Positions 1 to 53,182 of a DNA stretch of 64,000 bases are shown piece after piece (position 1 is the first letter of the stretch; every line of letters begins with the position of its first letter). A program made the translations under genes and the position numbers. The stretch is from assembly GCA_951394045.1 (NCBI GenBank), contig OX595985.1, positions 1 through 64,000 of the forward strand, read 5' to 3'. The notes below the pieces were generated by a model. That model did no database searches. It saw only the letters and a program-made list of their open reading frames with translations, and was not told the DNA's origin. Origin of the DNA: Nitzschia sp. DOCU1 (Eukaryota; Bacillariophyta; Bacillariophyceae; Bacillariales; Bacillariaceae).

Positions 1-1121
1 ACCCTAACCCTAACCCTAACCCTAACCCTAACCCTAACCCTAACCCTAACCCTAACCCTAACCCTAACCCTAACCCTAACCCTAACCCTAACCCTAACCC
101 TAACCCTAACCCTAACCCTAACCCTAACCCTAACCCTAACCCTAACCCTAACCCTAACCCTAACCCTAACCCTAACCCTAACCCTAACCCTAACCCTAAC
201 CCTAACCCTAACCCTAACCCTAACCCTAACCCTAACCCTAACCCTAACCCTAACCCTAACCCTAACCCTAACCCTAACCCTAACCCTAACCCTAACCCTA
301 ACCCTAACCCTAACCCTAACCCTAACCCTAACCCTAACCCTAACCCTAACCCTAACCCTAACCCTAACCCTAACCCTAACCCTAACCCTAACCCTAACCC
401 TAACCCTAACCCTAACCCTAACCCTAACCCTAACCCTAACCCTAACCCTAACCCTAACCCTAACCCTAACCCTAACCCTAACCCTAACCCTAACCCTAAC
501 CCTAACCCTAACCCTAACCCTAACCCTAACCCTAACCCTAACCCTAACCCTAACCCTAACCCTAACCCTAACCCTAACCCTAACCCTAACCCTAACCCTA
601 ACCCTAACCCTAACCCTAACCCTAACCCTAACCCTAACCCTAACCCTAACCCTAACCCTAACCCTAACCCTAACCCTAACCCTAACCCTAACCCTAACCC
701 TAACCCTAACCCTAACCCTAACCCTAACCCTAACCCTAACCCTAACCCTAACCCTAACCCTAACCCTAACCCTAACCCTAACCCTAACCCTAACCCTAAC
801 CCTAACCCTAACCCTAACCCTAACCCTAACCCTAACCCTAACCCTAACCCTAACCCTAACCCTAACCCTAACCCTAACCCTAACCCTAACCCTAACCCTA
901 ACCCTAACCCTAACCCTAACCCTAACCCTAACCCTAACCCTAACCCTAACCCTAACCCTAACCCTAACCCTAACCCTAACCCTAACCCTAACCCTAACCC
1001 TAACCCTAACCCTAACCCTAACCCTAACCCTAACCCTAACCCTAACCCTAACCCTAACCCTAACCCTAACCCTAACCCTAACCCTAACCCTAACCCTAAC
1101 CCTAACCCTAACCCTAACCCT
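1..1121. repeat. Telomere, (CCCTAA)n array
   Basis: About 187 uninterrupted copies of the C-rich telomeric hexamer, so the G-rich TTAGGG strand runs out of the left edge. This fixes the window as a left chromosome end. No variant repeats are seen. The array stops abruptly at 1120/1121 and continues straight into a coding fragment of a receiver domain, with no telomere-associated repeat between them. Confidence 0.99.
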
Positions 1122-7084: not shown

Positions 7085-9164
7085 AGGACTAGAACGTATT
7101 TTGTTCGGAGCAATAATATGTTATGTATCGTGCGAGAAACGATGCAACCTAGCTAGCTACTCCTCTACCGGTAGATTTATCATCTATCTATTCATCGAAC
7201 TTTTGGCTTCGTTTTTGTGTTCTCACACAAAAAGTTACTGAGCCCCACCGCTACGTCAAAGCAGTTCGATTTCGGAGGGGGTGGGCCACAGCTGCTCCGC
7301 CCGGTAGAGACAACAATCCACTTCACTCGACGGCGTAGCCGATTCCAATTCTCCACGCACCAGCACAGGTTACACTTAAACTCTCCGCGACGAGACACGT
7401 ACGCGAGTGGAGGACGTTTTAAAACCGGAACCACAAACCGGTTGCGTTGCTCTGGAAAATGTTGGTATTGTAGAACAACGCCAGACGCCTGCAAAATGAG
7501 GAAAGAACAAGGTGAGTAGCACTGCGGGAAAGAAATATGATCAAACGGCACCGTCAAGTCGCAAAAACGCAAGTTTGGAGTGCACGTACCGTTCCGAAGG
7601 GCGCCACCACATGAATCATTCCTCCGCCAACACCAACACAACAATCAAACATTTCATCCAACAACTTTCTTCCAGGGTCTGCTTCGGCTCCGTTTGCCTC
7701 AGGGAGCTAGCGTCATGGTTCAACCGAATCAGGAGGGCTCTCCAGAGACTGAGTCCACGTACACCCCCAATATTGGCTTCCTTCAGGACGAGTGTTCCAG
7801 GGCGGTCCGGCACAAACCGGACCTTCACCGTGGATTTCTCCTCCTTCAGGCTGTTATCTCGCTACAGCTGAGCCGCACCATCAAAATGATAGTGATCGCC
7901 GCAGTAGAGGTCTGTTCATAGCAGAGTGAAAAGAAAGTTGATGAAGAAAGCTGATCATCGTACGATGCGGATTGCTCCCTTCGCAAAAAAGTGAGGTCGA
8001 TTGAGTGAAAAAGTGATGCATTTGTTGGAAGGAATGCGGAGATCCGAGCCGAGCCGTTTCTGCTGTGGTTTGCGAGCAGTTTCGTGATTTTTCCCACGAT
8101 GAAGCAGTTTCGTGATTTTTCCCACGATGAAGCCCCACGGTGGCTGAAAGTAATCCACATTCAAATCCGCCAGTTCGCCAAATCCACAGAATATGGTTTC
8201 TGAGGCAAGGGCATAAGCTAGAAAACATTTGACGCTGTTTGTTAAACACGATTGATATGCCTTACGAATTCTGCTCGTCGACTAGACGGACTACATCAGA
8301 AAGATAGCAAGCTAGAGAAGTGGGCCGATCGCTGTCTAGCTGGATGCTACAATCATACCCAAGCTGTAAACAGCAAGCTATGGTTGATTTGAAGACGTTT
8401 GTAAAGTTTTTGTCAAATTACGATAGGTAGTTAGAAACTTAGTAGCCCTTTTTCAATGCCCTCATCGACACATAGAAAAAACGGTCGGCCACGCGGTCTA
8501 TCGCGAGTTCGTTTTTTAGATGACGCTAACTCACTCTGTGATCAAAAGAAGACCATAAAAATTTAATCTAGAGTCAATGTCAATATAAAGTACAATATTG
8601 TAAAGAGCGACCTTGCCAAAAAGTGTAAGCAAAGTTAGATTGTAATAGAGGGAAGATTGTCGCCCGCCGTGATTTCACTATAAATTTATGTGTAAGCAGT
8701 CGAGGTAATCAAAATCACTCAAGATCAATTTCCCTTTAAGTAAATGCATATGCCCTCTTGGAGGCAGCCGAGGGGATGCAATGCGATTTCCCGAGATTTC
8801 ACTACTCGCAATTTGGTGACGCAAGATTTTACAACAAGCGATTTCGCAACAACCGCTTTCGTACTGGGGGCACTTATCGAATCTCAATTCCCTCAGCGAC
8901 AAATAGAGCCGATAGTAGTGCAAAGCATTGCAGCAGAGTACGTAGATAGCTGGCTACTACGGTAGCTACGACTGCAGACTACTGCTAGCTCCCTTGTCTT
9001 ACTTTTGTTCTAGCTTCTGTGGTTACGTAAGCCAGACGACCGCAGCTTTCTCACTTCTACAAGCGACGGTATCACGATAATACGAGCATCCACGTGGGCT
9101 CTCGTTCTTTCTATCGGAGGGATAGTAAAGAACGTACTGTCAGCAGCAACAATCATGACTACTT
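7085..9164. other. Long gene-poor interval
   Basis: About 2 kb of A/T-leaning sequence with scattered short frames on both strands. None carries motifs or keeps its frame against the inner copy (25700-27854), where indels are frequent and not in threes. The first 100 bp (to about 7182) is the 3' flank of the ABCA gene, also seen at 58085. I see no RNA gene. Confidence 0.6.
8077..8132 (+). repeat. Tandem 28-bp duplication
   Basis: The 28-bp unit beginning CAGTTTCGTGATTTTTCCCA occurs twice in tandem. It is also present twice at 26760-26815, so it predates the alpha duplication. Confidence 0.9.
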
Positions 9165-25699: not shown

Positions 25700-27854
25700 A
25701 GTAGGACTAGAACGTATTTTGTTCGGAGCAATAATATGTTATGTATCGTGCGAGAAACGATGCAACCTAGCTAGCTACTTCTCTACCGGTAGATTTATCA
25801 TCTATCTATTCATCGAACTTTTGGCTTCGTTTTTGTGTTCTCACACAAAAAGTTACTGAGCCCCACCGCTACGTCAAAGCAGTTCGATTTCGGAGGGGGT
25901 GGGCCACAGCTGCTCCGCCCGGTAGAGACAACAATCCACTTCACTCGACGGCGCAGCCGATTCCAATTCCAATTCTCCACGCACCAGCACAGGTTACACT
26001 TAAACTCTCCGCGACGAGACACGTACGCGAGTGGAGGACGTTTTAAAACCGGAACCACAAACCGGTTGCGTTGATCAGGCTGTTTGTGTGCGGGGAGAAT
26101 CGGAATCGGGGTCGAGATCACGGATCAGGATCGTTGCTCTGGAAAATGTTGGTATTGTAGAACAACGCCAGACGCCTGCAAATGGAGGAAAGAACAAGGT
26201 GAGTAGCACTGCGGGAAAGAAATATGATCAAACGGCACCGTCAAGTCGCAAAAACGCAAGTTTGGAGTGCACGTACCGTTCCGAAGGGCGCCACCACATG
26301 AATCATTCCTCCGCCAACACCAACACAACAATCAAACATTTCATCAAACAACTTTCTTCCAGGGTCTGCTTCGGCTCCGTTTGCCTCAGGGAGCTAGCGT
26401 CATGGTTCAACCGAATCCGGAGGGCTCTCCAGAGACTGAGTCCACGTACACCCCCAATATTGGCTTCCTTCAGGACGAGTGTTCCAGGGCGGTCCGGCAC
26501 AAACCGAACCTTCACCGTGGATTTCTCCTCCTTCAGGCTGTTATCTCCCTACAGCTGAGCCGCACCATCAAAATGATAGTGATCGCCGCAGTAGAGGTCT
26601 GTTCATAGCAGAGTGGAAAGAAAGTTGATGAAGAAAGCTGATCATCGTTACGATGCGGATTGCTCCCTTCGCAAAAAAGTGAGGTCGATTGAGTGAAAAA
26701 GTGATGCATTTGTTGGAAGGAATGCGGAGATCCGAGCCGTTTCTGCTGTGGTTTGCGAGCAGTTTCGTGATTTTTCCCACGATGAAGCAGTTTCGTGATT
26801 TTTCCCACGATGAAGCCCCACGGTGGCTGAAAGTAATCCACATTCATCAACGGCCAGTTCGCCAAATCCACAGAATATGGTTTCTGAGGCAAGGGCATAA
26901 GCTAGAAAACATTTGACGCTGTTTGTTAAACACGATTGATATGCCTTACGAATTCTGCTCGTCGACTAGACGGACTACATCAGAAAGATAGCAAGCTAGA
27001 GAAGTGGGCCGATCGCTGTCTAGCTGGATGCTACAATCACACCCAAGCTGTAAACGGCAAGCTATGGTTGATTTGAAGACGTTTGTAAAGTTTTTGTCAA
27101 CTTACGATAGGTAGTTAGAAACTTAGTAGCCCTTTTTCAAAGCCCTCATCGACCCATGGGAAAAACGGTCGGCCACGCGGTCTATCGTGAGTTCGTTTTT
27201 TAGATGACGCTAACTCACTCTGTGATCAAAAGGAGACCATGAAAATTTAAACTAGAGTCAATGTCAATATAAAGTACAATATTGTAAAGAGCGACCTTGC
27301 CAGAAAGGGTAAGCAAAGTTAGATTGTAATAGAGGGAAGATTGTCGCCCGCCGTGATTTCACTATAAATTTATGTGTAAGCAGTCGAGGTAATCAAAATC
27401 TCTCAAGATCAATTTCCCTTTAAGTAAATGCATATGCCCTCTTGGAGGCAGCCGAGGGGATGCAATGCAATTTCCCGAGATTTCACTACTCGCAATTTGG
27501 TGACGCAAGATTTTACAACAAGCGATTTCGCAACAACCGCTTTCGTACTGGGGGCACTTATCGAATCTCAATTCCCTCAGCGACAAATAGAGCCGAGAGT
27601 AGTGCAAAGCATTGCAGCAGAGTACGTACCGGTAGATAGCTGGCTACTACGGTAGCTACGACTGCAGACTACTGCTAGCTCCCTTGTCTTACTTTTGTTC
27701 TAGCTTCTGTGGTTACGTAAGCTAGACGACCGCAGCTTTCTCACTTCTACAAACGACGGTATCACGATAATACGAGCATCCACGTGGGCTCTCGTTCTTT
27801 CTATCGGAGGGATAGTAAAGAACGTACTGTCAGCAGCAACAATCATGACTACTA
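25700..27854. other. Gene-poor interval, inner alpha copy
   Basis: Counterpart of 7085-9164. It carries about 63 bp (near 26070-26130) that the outer copy lacks, and the 28-bp tandem pair at 26760-26815. No supported gene. Confidence 0.55.
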
Positions 27855-44202: not shown

Positions 44203-44697
44203 AGCCTCGATCTGCGAAGTTTCTGCACTTGCCTACAGCCGCGTTGTACATGAGAAGCTTCTGCGGAGCAGATTCTGCTACCTCCTCGAGGATCATTCAA
44301 TTCGCTCGCATCGTCGTCATAAATATAACGCTTTGCTACACCCGCCGAGACCTTATAAACCTGTGCCGAGGCCTCTGAGCTTTTGGGGACGCTATCCTCA
44401 CGACGAAACGAAGAATTACTCGTCCTTGCTGGCTCCTTATTGGATAGTGTCCCACGTTACAACGACTCTGAAGTTGAGCCCATCCCATCCCCGACGATCA
44501 AGGCGTCAAGTTCATTCTTGGTCGCGGCCCTTGTGGCTGTTACCCAGCCCAGAGATAGAAGCTTAAATTGGCGCGCTGAATCTTCCACTCAAGGAAGAAT
44601 CGAAGAATCTGATCGACAATTCTTTTGACTGCAGCTCGTTGATCAGCGAGATGCCAAGAAGCTCAACGGCTAGCTCGAAGCCTAGCCTGCAGCCCAT
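42176..44697 (+). repeat. Segmental duplication beta, inner copy
   Basis: Counterpart of about 9526-12050. The left edge abuts the upstream flank of NCA2; the right edge passes into a minisatellite not found in the outer copy. Confidence 0.92.
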
Positions 44698-44800
44698 CAA
44701 GATACCAAGCTCAAATACTAGCTTAAAGCCCAGCTTGCCACCCACCAGCTGGTAGCAACCTAGCTCGAAGCCTAGCTTGCAGCCAACCAGAACGAAGATG
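44660..44800 (-). repeat. Degenerate minisatellite of AGCTCGAAGCCTAGC type
   Basis: Several imperfect 25-30 bp units. On the minus strand they read as GCKLGFELG-type peptide repeats inside an open frame (44901-44563, 112 codons). The regular period and low complexity suggest a repeat array that happens to stay open rather than a gene. Confidence 0.6.
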
Positions 44801-45053
44801 CCCAGCACACTATCCACGTCGCAGCCCAGTTCGGTTCCCACCGACTCTTTTGTCGATTGCAATGGTGATATCGTGCTGTAGAAGCAACCATCGCTTTCCA
44901 CAAGATCGTCGCCAGGAGCACGGGCTGCGAACTGGCTTTGGTGATAAATATGTACATGATGTATGACTGGATCGACGGCGCGGGCTTCGTGATCGGGATC
45001 GAGGGTAGTGTTAGAAGCACCTCACAAAATGGAAGAGTCCTCTTGGACGGAGA

Positions 45054-45293
45054 ATGAGTCAATCTTCAGCCGTCGTTCGCTCTGTGGTCTTAACCCCAGA
45101 TTCCCAAGTTTGTGCTGCGTCGTCGGCCGAAGAAGTCAACACAGGGTGCGACTTCTTTAAATACACAGGCGATGAATGCTGCAAAGATGATCCCAGCTAT
45201 CCCAACCAGCTAGCTTGTTCCTGGTGTGAAGAGGCCACTGTCGCCATCTTCAAAGGAGCATGTAATGGCGGGCCTGTCTATTGCTTCTGCTAG
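45054..45293 (+). CDS. Small cysteine-rich protein or 3' exon
   Basis: 79 codons with ten cysteines concentrated in the last 60 residues (CDFFKYTGDECC, LACSWCEE, CNGGPVYCFC). No signal peptide starts at this ATG, so it may be the last exon of a secreted cysteine-rich protein whose 5' part was displaced by the beta duplication. Family not recognised. Confidence 0.4.
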   Translation: MSQSSAVVRSVVLTPDSQVCAASSAEEVNTGCDFFKYTGDECCKDDPSYPNQLACSWCEEATVAIFKGACNGGPVYCFC

Positions 45294-45518
45294 AGGCGAA
45301 TCCGTTTCAGTAGCAAGTCGTTCTTGAAACAGCTTGCTGCTGTTACTTATGCATTGTACCGAAAGGATGGAATGCCATATTGAATGCTCGAATGAGTCAA
45401 TCGCATTGAAGTACGACTCCTGGCGGCGTCCAGACCCTCAGAGGGCGTTCCATTCGCGAAGAACTCCATTGAGTCGAAAAAGGCCCAAAGCGAAATGACT
45501 TTTACCATCCATATCCTA
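45294..45518. other. Left flank of the retroelement
   Basis: 225 bp without a gene, ending in the insertion point CCTA/CCGCC of the element. No target duplication is evident. Confidence 0.5.
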
Positions 45519-45701
45519 CCGCCGGCCGGGCAGCGAACGTCAGGAAACGGCCGAGTGACAGGCGGGAATGACTTGACAACGTGTCGGTCATCATTCCCAG
45601 CCTCTAGAGACGACAGCGACGAAACAGCAGCGACAATGAGCCTCTGCTCATATTGCTCGCTATTCCATCGCTGTTAGCTCATACGCTAGTAGTTAAATAA
45701 T
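45519..45701 (+). repeat. Terminal repeat A1
   Basis: 183 bp at the left end of the element, repeated as A2 at 51402-51586. It begins CCGCCGGCCGGG, a GC-rich potential hairpin, and ends TTAAATAAT 16 bp before the ORF1 ATG. It should hold the promoter/leader of the element, since the ORFs start just downstream. Confidence 0.93.
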
Positions 45702-45717
45702 AAGCAATCCCAACGCC

Positions 45718-46980
45718 ATGAATGTCGTTGGTGGCCCTGCAGTAGCTGCAGGACAGCAAGGGGGCGGCGCCCCGGTAGCTGGGCAGCCCCCTCAGGCTCC
45801 CCTCGGCCCCTTGCAACCTTACCAAGCATTATACAACAACGTCGCAGTCTGTCCTTTCGGCAACAACTACGCGAACATCTATGCCGAATGGGCGACGCCC
45901 GAAGGCGGTAATATTCCCAATACACCTGGACAGCTCCGTAATAAGCTGTACAGTAGTGCTATGGGAGTCCAAGGCGTGAAACTGGCTCATGTATTGCTGG
46001 TCCGGCCCACTAACGCCGGTGCAGACAACCCCGGGCTAATCCAAGGGTATCACCGCCTGGCCCAGTATCACCCACTCATTGGCGAAGCAACTAGCATGGA
46101 CAATGTCGGATACTCTTTTCTGGGCGACGTGTACGAGGGCAACGCCCCTGAGTCCTATTTTAATCGCGTCCAAACGACAAGGGTATTGACTGCCGCCGCT
46201 ATCGATCAACACTTTGCTGCGAATCCGGCCGATGAGCTCTTGGGCCCCTTTGTGGCAGGCGATCCCGACACTGAGCCGATTGGGACCCGAGTCTGCATGT
46301 TCATACCTAATAAGTATGTCACCTTGGTTATGAACCAAGGTATGTCACCAAAGAATGCTTGGCTCCGCATTCGAGCCACTATTGCCAATGCAGGAGAAGA
46401 AGCGGCAATGGAGCCGCTAATTAACTGGTTTCGAGTGGCGCTTACTCGTCCAACGGCAGGAGCGCTACCTAGACAAGCCGTGCCGCCGCCAGCATCACAA
46501 ACCTTTGTAGGAGGATGGGAGGCAGCCAAGTTCAATGCCTTTCGACAAGGACTTATTCAGCTGGACCTCCCACAGCTGAGCAATAACGCACTCACGGCCG
46601 GGGCGAACCAGATTGCGCTCGGCCTCAACCAGCTCGTCACGGAACAACGAGATGCTAGAGCTGAAGATGAGGCCCGTCGTCGCCGGGACAAGCACAAGAC
46701 CCCCGTTGATTTGTACGGCGAAGGGGGTATTTTAAAGCTACTCCGGTGGTGTGGAGTGCCTAGCGAGGCCGACTTGCCCGCCGTGCACTTGGCACTTGCA
46801 AATGCCGGACGTGGCAAGAGTGGCGGCATGACGCATCGGAGAGCGCTGCAGATAGCCGTAGACATGGAGGCGGAGGCGCTGGGCTTCAGCGACGTCGATC
46901 TCCAAATCACGTCCAGCGTTGCCACGAGAGTGGTAAACCTGGCGTGGACCTCCAGCACTCCAGACAACTTTGGCGTCTGA
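45718..46980 (+). CDS. Retrotransposon ORF1, Gag-like N-terminal part
   Basis: 420 codons from the ATG right after A1. A Gly/Ala/Pro/Gln-rich start is followed by an ordered domain (LRNKLYSSAMGVQGVKLAH, PLINWFRVALTRP, GGWEAAKFNAFRQGLIQLDL) and an Arg/Asp-rich coiled stretch (EQRDARAEDEARRRRDKHK). No enzymatic motif; its position before RT marks it as structural (Gag). It ends in TGA (46978-46980), after which the same frame stays open into ORF2, so ORF1 and ORF2 may be one protein split by a nonsense change or joined by readthrough. Confidence 0.75.
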   Translation: MNVVGGPAVAAGQQGGGAPVAGQPPQAPLGPLQPYQALYNNVAVCPFGNNYANIYAEWATPEGGNIPNTPGQLRNKLYSSAMGVQGVKLAHVLLVRPTNAGADNPGLIQGYHRLAQYHPLIGEATSMDNVGYSFLGDVYEGNAPESYFNRVQTTRVLTAAAIDQHFAANPADELLGPFVAGDPDTEPIGTRVCMFIPNKYVTLVMNQGMSPKNAWLRIRATIANAGEEAAMEPLINWFRVALTRPTAGALPRQAVPPPASQTFVGGWEAAKFNAFRQGLIQLDLPQLSNNALTAGANQIALGLNQLVTEQRDARAEDEARRRRDKHKTPVDLYGEGGILKLLRWCGVPSEADLPAVHLALANAGRGKSGGMTHRRALQIAVDMEAEALGFSDVDLQITSSVATRVVNLAWTSSTPDNFGV

Positions 46981-47004
46981 CTCCACCCCTTCGCGGTGGG
47001 ATTT

Positions 47005-47895
47005 ATGACGCGAGAGGACACTGAGCTCCAACGCACCCTCAACGAAGAAGCCGACTTGTTGTACAGCGGAGACACGGCGCCAAGCCTTCGCGATGCCCAA
47101 TCGGTAGTCAGCGCCGAAAAGGACATTCACATCCCTAAAACTTTCGCCCAAGGGCGAGAGACCATCAAGCGGACGTATCTCCTGTTCTTGGTCCTCCTTG
47201 GGAATGGGCACCGAGTAGTGGAGCACATGCGGCGTTATTTGGCCATGTACAACGATAGGGAGACGTCATTGGAGACGTCCAAGCCCCGGAACCCTCGGCA
47301 CTATTCCGTTGTACCAGCGTTGCTGATGCGGCGATTTCAGCTCGAGCTCAACGAGTGGATGAAGACGCAAGCGATCACACCGGGACTGGTCCCCATGCTG
47401 GATATCACCTTGGTTTTCCAGGAGATTGCTCTGCAGCGGGACTGGGCGCCGGAGTTCCCCGAAAAATACTTGAGCGCAGCAAGGTCGGCTAGCAGCACGG
47501 ACGAAGGTACCGTGGTGTCGGATGTCACCACTCCCACCATTGCAACGGGCACGACCAGTGGTACTCGCGCATCGTCGTGGGGCCGCAGTACTACAACTGC
47601 CACCACAACTACCCAAGGTGGAGGCGGTCAGCCGCAGCACAACCCGGCCTTTAACGGCGCAACTTTCGAGTCGTTCCGGGCCAAGAATCTGGTTACCAAG
47701 CGGGTGAAGGCCTACTGCTTGGCAAATAGCATTTCCTTGCCACTCAATCGAGATAACAAGGTTATGTGCCTAGCATGGCACCTCAAAGGTCATTGCAGCG
47801 ACGGATGCGGCAGCAAGTATGACCATCGGCCACATGACGCAGCCGAGGATCAAACATTGGTGGCCTGGGCTCAGGCCAACTACCGCACCAGCTGA
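47005..47895 (+). CDS. Retrotransposon ORF2, Gag-like with zinc knuckle-like motif
   Basis: About 296 codons from ATG 47005, in the same frame as ORF1 and open from the codon after its stop. It has helical N-terminal sequence (RTYLLFLVLLGNGHRVVEHM), a Thr/Gly-rich linker, and near the C-terminus a Cys/His cluster CLAWHLKGHCSDGCGSKYDH (C-x8-C-x3-C-x5-H), like the single zinc finger at the end of DIRS-type Gag. It ends in TGA (47893-47895), in frame with ORF3 45 nt downstream. Confidence 0.75.
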   Translation: MTREDTELQRTLNEEADLLYSGDTAPSLRDAQSVVSAEKDIHIPKTFAQGRETIKRTYLLFLVLLGNGHRVVEHMRRYLAMYNDRETSLETSKPRNPRHYSVVPALLMRRFQLELNEWMKTQAITPGLVPMLDITLVFQEIALQRDWAPEFPEKYLSAARSASSTDEGTVVSDVTTPTIATGTTSGTRASSWGRSTTTATTTTQGGGGQPQHNPAFNGATFESFRAKNLVTKRVKAYCLANSISLPLNRDNKVMCLAWHLKGHCSDGCGSKYDHRPHDAAEDQTLVAWAQANYRTS

Positions 47896-47940
47896 TTCAC
47901 CGGCGGGAGCAACGTTGATACTACATATTCTTTCCATGTT

Positions 47941-50409
47941 ATGCAATCTCATACGGACGCTCTGATGCCATCAGCTGCCATCTGCAAACCACCCGCCCCA
48001 ACCAGACCAGTGATTTCAAGGTCGGCCGCTAAGCGGCCCAAGTTGTCCTCATCCTTCGATGAATTAGGTAAGCAGGTCGTAATTGATAGTCAAGCGATTA
48101 CCAACGACATCTATCACTTGTTCCGGGAGCGCCAGGGGCAGGGAAATTTCACGAACTTGAGGAAGTACAAGAATCATCCGGCATACCCCTTGCTGCGGCT
48201 ATTACGCAGAAAGGGGGCACCGGTGGTAACGTCCACTCCACCGTGGACACTTGAGCAGAAAGACCGGGCGGTAGAGCGAGGAGCCCACCATTCGGCGACA
48301 GAATACTTGGAATTTTTGAGGGAGGAAATGTTGGACATGGTGCACAAGGCCTTTTGGATCGTCCTCCCGTATTCCAAGATCCGGCATCTCAAGAACCTCC
48401 GCGTCTCTCTGATTGGGGTGGTTCCCCAACACGAGAGGCGCCCAAGAACAATTGTCGACTACACCTTCAATGGGGTGAACGACGAAACCGTGAGGCTCTC
48501 ACCCCGCGAGGCAATGCAATTCGGCCGGGCCCTGGAAAGGATCATAACCGACGTCGTCAGAGCAGACCCCCAATATGGACCTGTCAAGTTTATCAAAATT
48601 GATATTGCAGACGGCTTCTACCGCGTCTGGGTCAGAGCAGAGGATATACCAAAGCTTGGCGTTGCCTTTCCTACGTTGGATGGAGAAGAGCCTCTCATTG
48701 CGCTACCGCTATCACTCCCCATGGGCTGGACAGAATTGCCGCCCTATTTCTGTGCAGTCACCGAAACGATTCCGGATGAAGCCAACCAACGAATTTTGCG
48801 GTGGAGACATCCAAGCCAGCACCGACTAGAAAAGTTGGCGGAGTCCCCACCACTGCCAACCTTTACAACACCACAATTCGCGCCGACCACTACGCCACTG
48901 CCCGAGCACGAGAATCCAATGCTGCCCACCCGACAACGCATGCTGGCCAAAATTGACGTATTTGTTGACGACTTCATTGGAGCCGCCCAGGGGAGCAACA
49001 GGCGACTTAGGAAGATTCGGAACATCCTCATGGACTCCATCGACGACATGTGGCGCCCCCTTTCAAGCACCGACGGCGCCCACCGCACCGAGCCGATATC
49101 CGTAAAGAAATTAAAACAAGGCGACGCGCGTTGGAGTACAGTTAAAAAGGTGCTGGGATGGGTGATCGATTCGGAGGCCATGACGATCACCTTGCCTCAG
49201 CGTCGCCTCGATCGACTGGCCGAATTATTGGCCTCTGTGCACCCCAAGCAGCGCCGGATGGAGATCAGCAAATGGCATCAAATGCTGGGCGAGCTACGAT
49301 CAATGGCCCTAGCTATACCTGGTGCCCGCGGCCTCTTCAGCCATCTTCAGCACGCCGCGAAGACGGAATACAAAGGGCGCCTGAAACTGCGTAAAGGATT
49401 TCACAGCGCCATTCAGGATTTTAAATGGCTCCATCGGGACCTTGATAGCCGCCCCACTCGGCTCTACGAATTGGTACCCACGGACCCTTCGGTTGTTGGT
49501 AGCCACGACGCTTCCGGCCTAGGAGCAGGCGGCGTTGTCCTGCCGCATCCCACCGTACAGGGGCGCCAGACCAAGCTCCTGGCTGTCAAGGAAGGATTAC
49601 TCCTACCGGCGCATCCAACTACTGCGGTGCCCATAGTGTGGCGCCACCAATTCTCCCCTACGATCACCTCGCGGCTGGTTACGTTCCGCAACCCCAACGG
49701 TGACATCAATAATTCGGAGCTCGAACTAGCCGGCAGCATCATCCATCATGAGGCCGTCGTTCAGTGCTACGATGTGCGCGAACGCACCTGCAAGTCCGAC
49801 ACTGACAACCTGGCAGCATTGTATTGGCAGCGCAAAGGTTCCGTCACGACTGCTTCTCCCACCGCGCACCTTCTCCGTATGCGAGCGCTGCACCAACGGC
49901 ACCATCGATATGTTTCCCTCAACGATTACCTGCCCGGGAGCCAAAACGAGATGGCGGACGACGCTTCTCGGTTGCATCATTTGTCTGACCTTGCCTTTTT
50001 AAATTATTTCAATTCTAAATATCCACAGACACTGTCCTGGCATCTGTGGACACCCCCGCAGCAGTTCATTTCCGCCGTGACCTCGGCCTTGCACAAGCGG
50101 ACGTGCAAGCCGGAGTCGTTCCTTCGCGTGCCCGAGCTGCCGATGCCCATTGGCACATATGGGAGGAGTTTTGCCAAGAACTCCATCTCGATCCTTCCCT
50201 TCAAGGGGTCCAAGATCCCGTCCCCTTCCTCCAAGTCTACGCCCGCCGCTACCGGACCGGAGAAATTGCCCCCCGTCAAAACCCGGTCCGCTCTAGAACA
50301 GTGGAAGATGCCCTACGAAGCATTGGGCAAACGTTCTCGAGTGTGGGGGCCCCGGACCCACGCCTCACCATCCAAGGCAAAATGGACTTTCGCCTCCAGC
50401 GCCAGCTAG
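47941..50409 (+). CDS. Retrotransposon reverse transcriptase - RNase H
   Basis: 822 codons. RT: motif A KIDIADGF (about residue 221), LPMGW (motif B region, about 260), then an insertion of roughly 70 residues rich in Pro/Thr before the FVDD catalytic box (about 341-344), and the GW primer-grip region VLGWVID (about 404). RNase H of Gypsy/DIRS type: Asp in SHDAS (523), Glu in NNSELELAG (about 595), Asp in KSDTDN (about 625), Asp in NEMADDASR (about 675). All catalytic residues are present. The last 120 codons overlap the recombinase frame and are Lys/Pro/Ser-rich without motifs, as expected when the other frame is the constrained one. It probably primes on an open or nicked RNA as a free protein; no protease or integrase is present. 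Confidence 0.95.
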   Translation: MQSHTDALMPSAAICKPPAPTRPVISRSAAKRPKLSSSFDELGKQVVIDSQAITNDIYHLFRERQGQGNFTNLRKYKNHPAYPLLRLLRRKGAPVVTSTPPWTLEQKDRAVERGAHHSATEYLEFLREEMLDMVHKAFWIVLPYSKIRHLKNLRVSLIGVVPQHERRPRTIVDYTFNGVNDETVRLSPREAMQFGRALERIITDVVRADPQYGPVKFIKIDIADGFYRVWVRAEDIPKLGVAFPTLDGEEPLIALPLSLPMGWTELPPYFCAVTETIPDEANQRILRWRHPSQHRLEKLAESPPLPTFTTPQFAPTTTPLPEHENPMLPTRQRMLAKIDVFVDDFIGAAQGSNRRLRKIRNILMDSIDDMWRPLSSTDGAHRTEPISVKKLKQGDARWSTVKKVLGWVIDSEAMTITLPQRRLDRLAELLASVHPKQRRMEISKWHQMLGELRSMALAIPGARGLFSHLQHAAKTEYKGRLKLRKGFHSAIQDFKWLHRDLDSRPTRLYELVPTDPSVVGSHDASGLGAGGVVLPHPTVQGRQTKLLAVKEGLLLPAHPTTAVPIVWRHQFSPTITSRLVTFRNPNGDINNSELELAGSIIHHEAVVQCYDVRERTCKSDTDNLAALYWQRKGSVTTASPTAHLLRMRALHQRHHRYVSLNDYLPGSQNEMADDASRLHHLSDLAFLNYFNSKYPQTLSWHLWTPPQQFISAVTSALHKRTCKPESFLRVPELPMPIGTYGRSFAKNSISILPFKGSKIPSPSSKSTPAATGPEKLPPVKTRSALEQWKMPYEALGKRSRVWGPRTHASPSKAKWTFASSAS

Positions 50410-51176
50410 CTAGCTATTCCAAGAAGGATCCTCCCCCACACCGGGTCAAACCTATACCGGTACCCATTCTTCAGCAAATCATGGCGGGCGCTATTTTATC
50501 CAACAATGTCGGCTCCCTGGCGGTCGCCGATATGATAGCCCTTGCTTTCTTCTTTCTCCTGCGCCCAGGTGAATACAGTGGCACCCCTTCCGACACCACG
50601 CCCTTTCGTTTGTGTGATGTCGGCTTGTTTATTGGTCTAGTCCGACTAGACCCCCTCACTGCCACCGACCAAGAAATTTCCACTGCCACTTTCGCCACGC
50701 TGGAATTCACCACTCAGAAGAACGGCGTTCGTGGTGAAGTCATTGGCCTTGGCCGCAGTGGTGACCCTCATTTCTGTCCTGTCTCCGCCCTGATTCAACG
50801 AGTCCTTTACCTTCGCCATCACCAGGCTCCACCTACTACATGCCTGGCTCAGTACCTTCGCAACGGCACCTGGCAACCAGTGAGACCGACAGACATCACC
50901 GATGCCCTGCGCACAGCCACCTATGCCCTAGGTCCCACCTACGGCTTCTTGCCCAAAGATATCTCTGCTCGTTCCCTTCGCGCTTCAGGTGCCATGGCCC
51001 TCCTTTGCGCCAAAATCGACACCGACCTCATCCGCCTTATTGGTCGGTGGCGCTCCGACGAAATGCTTCGATACCTACATGTTCAAGCCGCCCCTGTTAT
51101 GCAACAATTTTCTTCCCGCATGCTCCGCGATGGCGCCTTCACGCTCCACCCCAACCATGAAGTCCCCCTCTACTAA
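50019..51176 (+). CDS. Retrotransposon tyrosine recombinase
   Basis: Open from 50019 (after a TAA) to 51176, in the -1 frame relative to ORF3 and overlapping it by 391 nt. Counting from codon 50046, box I is FLLRPGEYSG (Arg173), box II ARSLRASGA (Arg312, with Ser in the place of the usual His), then GRWRSDEMLRYLHV with Trp335 and the nucleophile Tyr343. An N-terminal SAM-like helical part (HWHIWEEFCQELHLDP) precedes. It would integrate the circular cDNA at short matching sites. The first in-frame ATG is at 50382, inside the N-terminal domain, so the way translation starts (frameshift, reinitiation or splice) is unclear. Confidence 0.92.
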   Translation: MSTDTVLASVDTPAAVHFRRDLGLAQADVQAGVVPSRARAADAHWHIWEEFCQELHLDPSLQGVQDPVPFLQVYARRYRTGEIAPRQNPVRSRTVEDALRSIGQTFSSVGAPDPRLTIQGKMDFRLQRQLASYSKKDPPPHRVKPIPVPILQQIMAGAILSNNVGSLAVADMIALAFFFLLRPGEYSGTPSDTTPFRLCDVGLFIGLVRLDPLTATDQEISTATFATLEFTTQKNGVRGEVIGLGRSGDPHFCPVSALIQRVLYLRHHQAPPTTCLAQYLRNGTWQPVRPTDITDALRTATYALGPTYGFLPKDISARSLRASGAMALLCAKIDTDLIRLIGRWRSDEMLRYLHVQAAPVMQQFSSRMLRDGAFTLHPNHEVPLY

Positions 51177-51240
51177 CCTGCACCCACGCGCTGCTCCCAC
51201 CCAACTTTCCTCCGGCCCCAACGACGTGTCCGTATTCGTG

Positions 51241-51401
51241 GCTGACCGACTAGATCCATGGTCTACCGGCGTGGTGTGGGCCCCAGCTACTGCCCAGTAA
51301 CTAGGTCGCCAAACCACCAACAGCTACTACTACCTTATTATCAAATTATTATCAAATTTACAGTGCCCGAGAGTGAGCGACTGGCCAAAGCGGCGCAGCC
51401 G
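51241..51401 (+). repeat. Internal repeat B1
   Basis: 161 bp, matching B2 (51602-51751) apart from an 11-bp ATTATCAAATT duplication. It starts GCTGACCGACTAG 64 bp after the recombinase stop and abuts A2 with the shared word CCG. Confidence 0.92.
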
Positions 51402-51586
51402 CCGCCGGCCGGGCAGCGAACGTCAGGAAACGGCCGAGTGACAGGCGGGAATGACTTGACAACGTGTCGGTCATCATTCCCAGCCTCTCTAGAGACGACA
51501 GCGACGAAACAGCAGCGACAATGAGCCTCTGCTCATATTGCTCGCTATTCCATCGCTGTTAGCTCATACGCTAGTAGTTAAATAAT
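51402..51586 (+). repeat. Internal repeat A2
   Basis: 185 bp, same as A1 apart from one CT insertion. It lies between B1 and B2, the arrangement needed for circle formation in split-repeat elements. Confidence 0.93.
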
Positions 51587-51601
51587 CCCGCCCACCCGCC
51601 C

Positions 51602-51751
51602 GCTGACCGACTAGATCCATGGTCTACCGGCGTGGTGTGGGCCCCAGCTACTGCCCAGTAACTAGGTCGCCAAACCACCAACAGCTACTACTACCTTATT
51701 ATCAAATTTACAGTGCCCGAGAGTGAGCGACTGGCCAAAGCGGCGCAGCCG
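51602..51751 (+). repeat. Terminal repeat B2
   Basis: 150 bp right end of the element. It ends GCGCAGCCG before flanking DNA that begins CGAAATCAGCG. The CCG here, at the B1/A2 joint and at the start of A1 could be the recombination core. Confidence 0.9.
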
Positions 51752-52329
51752 CGAAATCAGCGATTTTCGACCCCCCACCAAAGAACGACCATGGCACTAT
51801 TTTGGAAGCAAGCCTGTGACAGCCCTTATTGCTTTCAGGCTCTGATTCGTTGCCCCCCGGGTGCTTTGAAGCCTCCCTGAATAGACTTGAGCGAATGGCA
51901 TCGTCTAGATCCGCCTACAGCAGTTGCCCTCGCTTCGTGAAATTTACGGTTTGTCGATTTCAGGACCTCCTAAATCGAGCCCGAAAAGAGCCCTAAAATC
52001 GGACCTTTTCTGGCTTTTCTCAACTCACAAGCCGTCTAGCTTAAATGATCGGGTGCTCTCGTAAACTTTGACTCATGGAAGTGGTGGGGTTATAGTTGCA
52101 GGCGTTGTAGCCGCCTTCCCACACCTACGGTCAGGTTCTTCCGTTTTTGCGCTAATCGGCCCATGAACCGACTCGCTCTTTTGGCAGTTTCGTTGGCTGC
52201 AGCAATCTTGCCGACTTGCCAAGCATAGATTCATCATGCTGGTGATTTATGCAAAATTACTGACAAAATTACTGAGGTAAAAAGATTCCAGAATACGAGA
52301 TGCGAAAATATCGCGTGCTTTCTCCTGTT
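51752..52329. other. Right flank of the retroelement, no gene seen
   Basis: About 580 bp without a convincing frame or motif. Confidence 0.5.
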
Positions 52330-52576
52330 ACTGGGACTACTACCTTGGACCTGGACTTGGACAAGCGGCGGTTCATCTCCGCGATGATGAATAAGACCCT
52401 TACCCGTGCCTTACTGGAACTACTTAGTACCTTGGACCTGGACTTTGAGGTGGTTCATCTCCGATGATGAATAAGACGCTTACCCGTGCCCTTACTGGAA
52501 CTACTTAGTACCTTGGACCTGGACGTGGACAAGCGGGGGCTCATCTCCGCAATGGTGAATAAGACGCTTACCCATG
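52330..52576 (+). repeat. Minisatellite, three units of about 82 bp
   Basis: Units start at about 52330, 52413 and 52494 with ACTGG(G)ACTAC-TA and share ACCTTGGACCTGGAC and GATGAATAAGAC-CTTACCC. The middle unit lacks GACAAGCGG. Confidence 0.85.
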
Positions 52577-52930
52577 CAATGAAGTCAAAGGTCAAGCTCC
52601 CGACAAACTATTCAATTCCGACTTGCTGAACTTCCGGTCTCATTTTACCTAGTGGGCGACAACAGCAAGGGCAGAAGGGCAATACTTCTTTACACCAGCA
52701 GTGCTGGTATCTCTACTCATATCTTTCACTGCCATTACTGCCCCAATATTCCTTGTGGGCTGCATTGGGTTCATGTTCCGCCTTGGAAAGCGAGTTGCAG
52801 TTACATTCTCGTTTGGTGGATGTGGGAAGTGTCTTCTACTATAAGAAGAAGAACCGCCGCGGCGAAGAATAAATCATCGTCACCGGAGCAAGTACCAAGG
52901 AAAATCGGGGCGAAGGGCATCGCTGGACAT

Positions 52931-53182
52931 TTTTCTGTCGTAGTGGCTTTATCCAAGATTGCGGCTTTGTGGTTTGAGTCTACGTTCCCTTCGCTACGAA
53001 TGTACTCTTAAGTTTCGACTACGATCTACCGCCGGAGATCCGTTTGGCCAAGACGACTACGACCGTCAACACCAAAGTTGCGTTCTATTATACCGGACAG
53101 TTTGCTGTCGTAGTGGTATAATCCGAGATTGTGGCTTTGTGGTTTGAGTCTACGTTCCCTCTGCTATGAATGTACTCTTAAG
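52931..53182 (+). repeat. 83-bp direct repeat pair, 169 bp apart
   Basis: 52931-53013 and 53100-53182 match with about ten differences. Both contain GGCTTTGTGGTTTGAGTCTA. No gene between them is recognised. Confidence 0.8.

Follow-up and report, generated by a model that had tools for sequence, protein, structure and literature searches.

The stretch of DNA analysed here, called the window, comprises 64,000 nucleotides (nt), i.e. positions 1-64,000 at the left end of contig OX595985.1 (contig C1) of the diatom Nitzschia sp. DOCU1 (assembly GCA_951394045.1). It contains a retrotransposon of approximately 6.2 kb encoding a tyrosine recombinase (YR), which spans positions 45519/45520-51752; an earlier sequence-only reading, in substance right about the nature of the element (its repeats, coding content and insertion), had placed the right end at 51751. 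The element belongs to a known kind, of which it is a new representative: it is a recent copy of a Ngaro-like YR retrotransposon, assigned to family alpha. Its gag and reverse transcriptase (RT) genes share one reading frame and are separated by a single TGA codon, an arrangement found in four divergent families of the host genome (alpha, beta, gamma and delta). The locus as a whole is very probably explained by a recent, precisely inserted Ngaro-like copy with a broken Gag, in which readthrough of the UGA codon is probable. The features of the element and its surroundings are presented in Table 1.

Table 1. Features of the YR retrotransposon and of its surroundings in the window (ORF, open reading frame; aa, amino acids)
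Feature	Position	Strand	Remarks
Proposed readthrough codon, TGA in the common frame of Gag and RT	47893..47895	+	RT frame opens directly after it
Gag, one reading frame	45718..47895	+	interrupted at 46978-46980 in the window copy; terminal TGA at 47893-47895
In-frame stop inside Gag	46978..46980	+	sense codon in 5/5 other alpha copies read
Gag C-terminal zinc finger C-x8-C-x3-C-x5-H	47767..47826	+	C684 to H703
RT-RNase H ORF	47941..50409	+	822 aa; frame open from 47896, in the Gag frame; first ATG after 15 codons
Zone of constrained-frame switch, RT to -1 (YR) frame	50032..50103	+	codon-position profile
YR ORF	50046..51176	+	376 aa; frame opens at 50019
A1 repeat, left element end	45519..45701	+	first C common with the target site
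B1 repeat	51241..51402	+	11 nt longer than B2
A2 repeat	51402..51586	+	repeat comparison
B2 repeat, right element end	51602..51752	+	repeat comparison
Left flank, repeated sequence	44319..45518	.	44 genome matches
Right flank, repeated sequence	51753..52952	.	48 genome matches
Telomere (ACCCTA)n	1..1121	.	end of contig C1, 1,121 bp

Structure, insertion and coding content of the element

The coordinates of the repeats confirm the split direct-repeat layout A1-ORFs-B1-A2-B2 of a YR retrotransposon, which had been proposed from the sequence, and the same layout is present in alpha copies 2, 3, 5 and 6. The reported near-identity of the repeats also holds: there are no substitutions between A1 and A2 (2 gap columns) or between B1 and B2 (11 gap columns). 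A single C at position 51402 is both the last base of B1 and the first base of A2, and this joint matches the one expected of a circle. No inverted repeat pairs of 20 nt or longer, such as the inverted terminal repeats of DIRS1-like elements, were found in the region 44500-53000.

Both the further copies and the empty sites that the sequence-only reading had proposed to look for were found in the host genome. At C1:2431456-2431656 the two flanks of the element join with exactly one C between them, and the joined flanks of the window with this C differ from the empty site by 2 substitutions in 201 positions, with no gaps. The element is likewise absent from two places on contig C5, which differ by 3 and 4 substitutions and by 18 gap columns each, and from C1:65640-65840, where 4 extra nt are located precisely at the site. 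Since the flanks meet at empty sites with a single C, the insertion shares one nucleotide with its target and generated no target-site duplication, as is characteristic of the DIRS order. In all five resolved alpha insertions (the window, copy2, copy3, copy5 and copy6), which have different flanks, an A precedes the shared C on the left, so an AC target preference is possible; copy4, which starts a few bases later, is not counted among the five. The absence of substitutions within the repeat pairs, together with the empty sites in the same genome, supports the view that the copy is young. The additional suggestion that it might still be mobile is weakened by the in-frame stop in its Gag.

Within the target repeat, the same stretch of 20 bp (CGAAATCAGCGATTTTCG; almost a palindrome) has also received other insertions, which apparently duplicated their target, and at C1:65740 it contains 4 extra nt (TGTA) resembling a footprint; the loci concerned are C3:137410 (L073), C1:360817 (L071) and C1:65740 (L067).

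The Gag-like region with its zinc finger was correctly recognised in the sequence-only reading. Its appearance as two Gag ORFs was not upheld. The predicted ORFs 45718-46980 and 46996-47895 lie in the same frame and constitute one gene broken by a stop, as indicated by (i) the sense codon found at this place in the five other alpha copies compared (two more alpha loci lie outside this comparison) and (ii) the protein P0241, the sole Gag relative found among 8,000 candidates, which is a single ORF of 726 aa, colinear with the read-through Gag (36-38% identity). The occurrence of sense codons in the other alpha copies also led us to reject the internal stop as a second readthrough site in this family; an extra in-Gag stop in a delta element on contig C10 is likewise confined to one of four delta copies. 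Zinc fingers of the same kind are present in beta, gamma, delta and P0241. The predicted fold of Gag had a mean pLDDT (predicted local distance difference test score) of 36 and was unusable. Because of the nonsense codon, the window copy is, judged from its sequence, probably not autonomous; it probably depends on other copies, which may provide it with help.

The residues previously noted in the enzymes, i.e. the FVDD motif of RT, the RNase H residues and R173, R312 and Y343 of YR, were all confirmed and are supported by alignments of relatives. D343, D344, D523, E595, D622, D673 and D674 are invariant in the RT alignment (21 rows: the window and 20 of 120 listed relatives out of 1,053), while in the YR alignment (50 rows: the window and 49 of 120 listed relatives out of 2,127) R173 and W335 are invariant and R312 and Y343 are conserved in at least 90% of rows. 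The RVT_1 domain was matched by 14 of the 21 RT members (best E-value 5.1e-7), with a value of only 0.22 for the window protein itself. The recombinase has a Cre-like fold and is present in place of a DDE integrase, in agreement with assignment to the DIRS order; searches of PDB with the YR sequence and with a YR profile returned nothing credible.

The Gag/RT junction in four families

A search of the host genome (G000; 52.08 Mb, 63 contigs) with RT gave 65 matches, which were merged into 47 loci. Based on RT identity to the window, these comprise alpha (66-100%), beta (about 38-42%), gamma (33-34%) and a further set (22-27%), within which the one group read was designated delta. The RT tree contains only rows from this genome and unnamed rows; gamma and delta are located on very long branches and their placement was not used. 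B-type repeat pairs (132-223 bp, 97.8-100% identical) were identified in four of six beta loci tested (the other two have none) and also in gamma and delta. Several alpha copies are damaged: in copy2, RNase H is followed by a stop, and A2 is separated from B2 by approximately 5.7 kb of foreign DNA (C1:5154655-5160402; perhaps a long terminal repeat (LTR) element), copy3 contains frameshifts, and copy4 has lost the region of the Gag/RT junction. All three frames are open in at least one member of an alpha subfamily that is more distant. Two alpha copies on contig C13 (144907-147322 and 161724-164139), 16.8 kb apart, have identical scores and offsets; apparently they reflect a duplication carrying the element.

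In alpha, where seven copies were examined at the junction (an eighth locus lies outside this set), TGA is present in five of the six copies with junction sequence (the window, copy2, copy5, copy6 and the twin of copy6 on C13). Direct inspection of beta revealed TGA followed by GAR in 17 of 19 loci, the other two lacking the anchor motif used, and a genome search in which TGA was read through placed an in-frame TGA in all 19 beta rows spanning the junction (one with a second TGA and one with an additional TAG). Over all junction-spanning rows of this search, TGA was found in 22 of 23, the exception being alpha copy3. Both gamma copies and all four delta rows spanning the junction also contain an in-frame TGA. 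The stop between Gag and RT is therefore TGA in each of the four families, and the stops of RT and YR vary between them.

Stop and frame were examined in alpha, gamma and delta, and selection was measured in beta, using four representative loci of 17 (L018 among them). Over the 62 codons following TGA, synonymous divergence (dS; 0.45-0.73) exceeds nonsynonymous divergence (dN; 0.085-0.25) in the RT frame in all six pairs, and this frame has no stops. The same stretch contains stops in the +1 frame (dS 0.19-0.42, dN 0.18-0.30) and in the +2 frame (dS 0.03-0.31, dN 0.24-0.31). We conclude from these substitution patterns, which show purifying selection in the RT frame, that the stretch behind the TGA of beta is translated in frame with Gag.

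A nested hairpin was identified after the TGA of beta, in which 97.3% of cells pair (15 of 17 loci, 14 of them distinct) and 13 cells are changed on both sides. Pairing, double-sided change and covariation score were each reached by none of 500 shuffles, and sliding the partner strand lowered the pairing to 27.7-55.8%. The folding energy of 12 beta loci was 2.25-5.69 standard deviations below that of dinucleotide shuffles, with 0-5 of 70 windows being as stable. At 60 nt no unusual structure was observed after the TGA of alpha, gamma or delta. At greater lengths, alpha copy2 and copy5 had z values of about -2, at 75 nt only, and two gamma copies had values of -2.1 and -3.6 at 90 nt, one of which also stands out at 105-120 nt.

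Putative expression of Pol and of the recombinase

The life cycle may be outlined from what is known of the order. The RNA of the element would be copied by the RT-RNase H that it encodes, its ends would be rebuilt, with the help of the A and B repeats, via circular DNA with a B1/A2-like joint, and the Cre-like recombinase would insert this circle into a target with which it has a single C in common. As regards translation, we consider it probable that (i) Gag would be translated from the first frame, (ii) Pol would be made by ribosomal readthrough of the single in-frame UGA that terminates Gag and (iii) YR would be reached in the -1 frame, through frameshifting or internal initiation. The comparison of junctions suggests that UGA readthrough would be the best explanation of the Gag-TGA-RT arrangement.

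Readthrough of a stop between Gag and Pol is known from the murine leukaemia virus type, an unrelated element, which has one in-frame UAG and a downstream pseudoknot. Tca2 of Candida albicans, a member of Ty1/copia, is an LTR element and belongs to a different order from the window element. Like the latter, it has Gag and Pol split by one UGA, which must be bypassed, and a possible 3′ RNA pseudoknot is present (PMC2194720, excerpt).

The -1 position of the YR frame relative to RT is common to alpha, beta, gamma and delta, with the exception of the damaged copies L014, L016, L017 and alpha copy3; the gamma YR has an internal stop. In the window the two frames overlap by 391 nt. The codon-position profile placed the frame switch of beta near positions 3460-3600 of L011. 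The GTG start of YR at 50046 is the choice of the gene finder only, and the first in-frame ATG is codon 122 (position 50382). The related protein P0191 starts with Met near the position of this ATG, and some relatives may therefore use internal initiation. No RT-YR fusion was found among the 120 listed RT relatives (the best 120 of 1,053), none of which exceeds 984 aa.

A number of observations weigh against the proposed scheme. Alpha copy3 has a sense codon in place of the Gag/RT stop, and in copy4 a deletion has removed this position. The four families are related by ancestry, and hence they are not independent tests; the comparison is that of four families, and other RT groups, with 22-25% identity, lie outside it. 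Two of five covariation measures of the beta hairpin fall within the shuffles (pairs with double change, 98/500; further pair types, 499/500). The window itself shows no unusual structure at 60-120 nt (z between -1.3 and +0.6), nor does delta at 60-105 nt (-1.65 at 120 nt). A scan of 12 sequences, limited to the 235 nt surrounding the point at which the YR frame opens, detected no conserved slippery heptamer at the RT/YR switch (one C-run occurs in copy2 and one in delta; in gamma this region probably misses the switch).

The strongest alternative, which we regard as unlikely, is that translation of Gag ends with the UGA and that RT is produced independently, through either reinitiation or a second mRNA; their common frame would then be an accident of inheritance. 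Reinitiation in alpha would find an ATG 15 codons (window) or 36 codons (copy5) behind the stop, and in beta loci L018 and L028 an ATG is located only 9 codons behind it. Moreover, the Tca2 junction alone gave no readthrough in Saccharomyces cerevisiae and held a minor promoter (PMC2194720, excerpt). Separate production of RT is opposed by the other beta loci, where the first ATG comes only after 62 codons (after 55 in L025, owing to a deletion) and the codons ahead of it are under constraint in the RT frame, and by delta, whose frame stays open for about 300 codons between the TGA and the first ATG; the use of TGA in all four families, whose RT and YR stops vary, also argues against it.

Short introns occur in diatoms, and the UGA might be spliced out with an in-frame intron, so that Gag-Pol would be made from a spliced mRNA. 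This is improbable: the beta codons located 3′ of the TGA show constraint in the RT frame, and 19 of 19 beta loci have retained the in-frame TGA, which would not be needed for a codon that is removed. Decoding of the UGA as selenocysteine is most improbable, even though some diatoms make selenoproteins, as the residues around it are not conserved between families; this counter-argument is weak, since no search aimed at a SECIS element was made.

Relationships, genomic setting and significance

We consider the element to be of a known kind because Ngaro elements of the same layout are known from Cafeteria, and DIRS/Ngaro-like or DIRS elements from Ectocarpus and Phaeodactylum. The Ngaro of the bicosoecid stramenopile Cafeteria burkhardae resembles the window element in length (about 6 kb), in its A1-[ORFs]-B1A2B2 layout and in having a Gag-like ORF, RT-RNase H and YR; many copies reside within virophage-like elements, whereas the window element is inserted in a repeat near a telomere, and the excerpted description mentions no in-frame Gag-UGA-RT (PMC8547959). 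Fungal Ngaro elements likewise encode RT-RNase H and YR, the latter in frame with RT or frameshifted, and no in-frame stop between Gag and Pol is mentioned in the excerpt (PMC3783388). YR retrotransposons of another stramenopile are represented by the DIRS/Ngaro-like elements of Ectocarpus, the structure of which is not described in the excerpt (PMC3145265). DIRS-order elements of a diatom are recorded, likewise with no structure given, for Phaeodactylum tricornutum, with 14 entries that total 18,118 bp, compared with 1,434 entries for copia; the previous statement that such elements are rarer than copia in diatoms agrees with this one table, which concerns P. tricornutum only (PMC5859163, excerpt).

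Of the earlier label Ngaro/PAT, the Ngaro side is favoured. A Pfam search (E≤1) of the four ORFs detected no methyltransferase, the mark of PAT, which argues against PAT, and VIPER has been described from kinetoplastids. It is nevertheless conceivable, albeit rather doubtful, that the element is of the PAT or VIPER type: the A1-B1-A2-B2 layout is common to PAT, Ngaro and VIPER (PMC6681497, PMC4157794), such features have been called homoplasious (PMC4157794), and Ngaro and VIPER usually lack ORF overlaps (PMC3266345; excerpts in each case), in contrast to the RT/YR overlap observed here. The absence of overlaps is a usual and not a defining trait of Ngaro.

The public protein set contains 1,053 RT and 2,127 YR relatives (among 8,000 scored candidates each), and the clade is therefore probably widespread; no relatives were found in the viral_contigs and genome_contigs sets. 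The setting was correctly described as a diatom subtelomere, as borne out by the telomere at position 1 and by 18 matches above the cut-off to the silicon-transporter family PF03842 in the genome (14 control genomes gave none above and one below the cut-off). One 28-nt unit (2.1 copies, 100%) is present both at window positions 8075-8133 and at 26758-26816, 18.7 kb apart, and given this twofold unit, part of the subtelomere may be duplicated. The region C1:3.2-5.86 Mb (2.65 Mb) holds 18 of the 47 YR-retrotransposon loci, with about 2.4 expected by length (binomial 6e-12); this compartment, which is rich in transposable elements, might be non-recombining or centromeric.

No report of Gag-UGA-Pol or of readthrough in Ngaro/DIRS elements was found in the open-licence literature, nor, in the excerpts considered, any explanation of how Pol and YR are expressed from the stopped, overlapping or out-of-frame ORFs of the DIRS order. 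The empty sites provide a base-exact view of insertion of the YR type, with one shared nucleotide, and the in-frame UGA common to four families is the part likely to be of most interest to specialists. With the UGA kept in four divergent families, constraint behind it and a hairpin in one of them, readthrough becomes testable. It may be, as a tentative proposal, that the whole of an abundant YR clade, of diatoms or of the wider marine environment, has ancestral Gag-UGA-Pol readthrough and a -1 step into YR, and that a compact covarying hairpin at the UGA evolved in one branch as a new stimulator of readthrough. If true, such double recoding would explain how elements of the DIRS order with frame-separated ORFs produce their enzymes.

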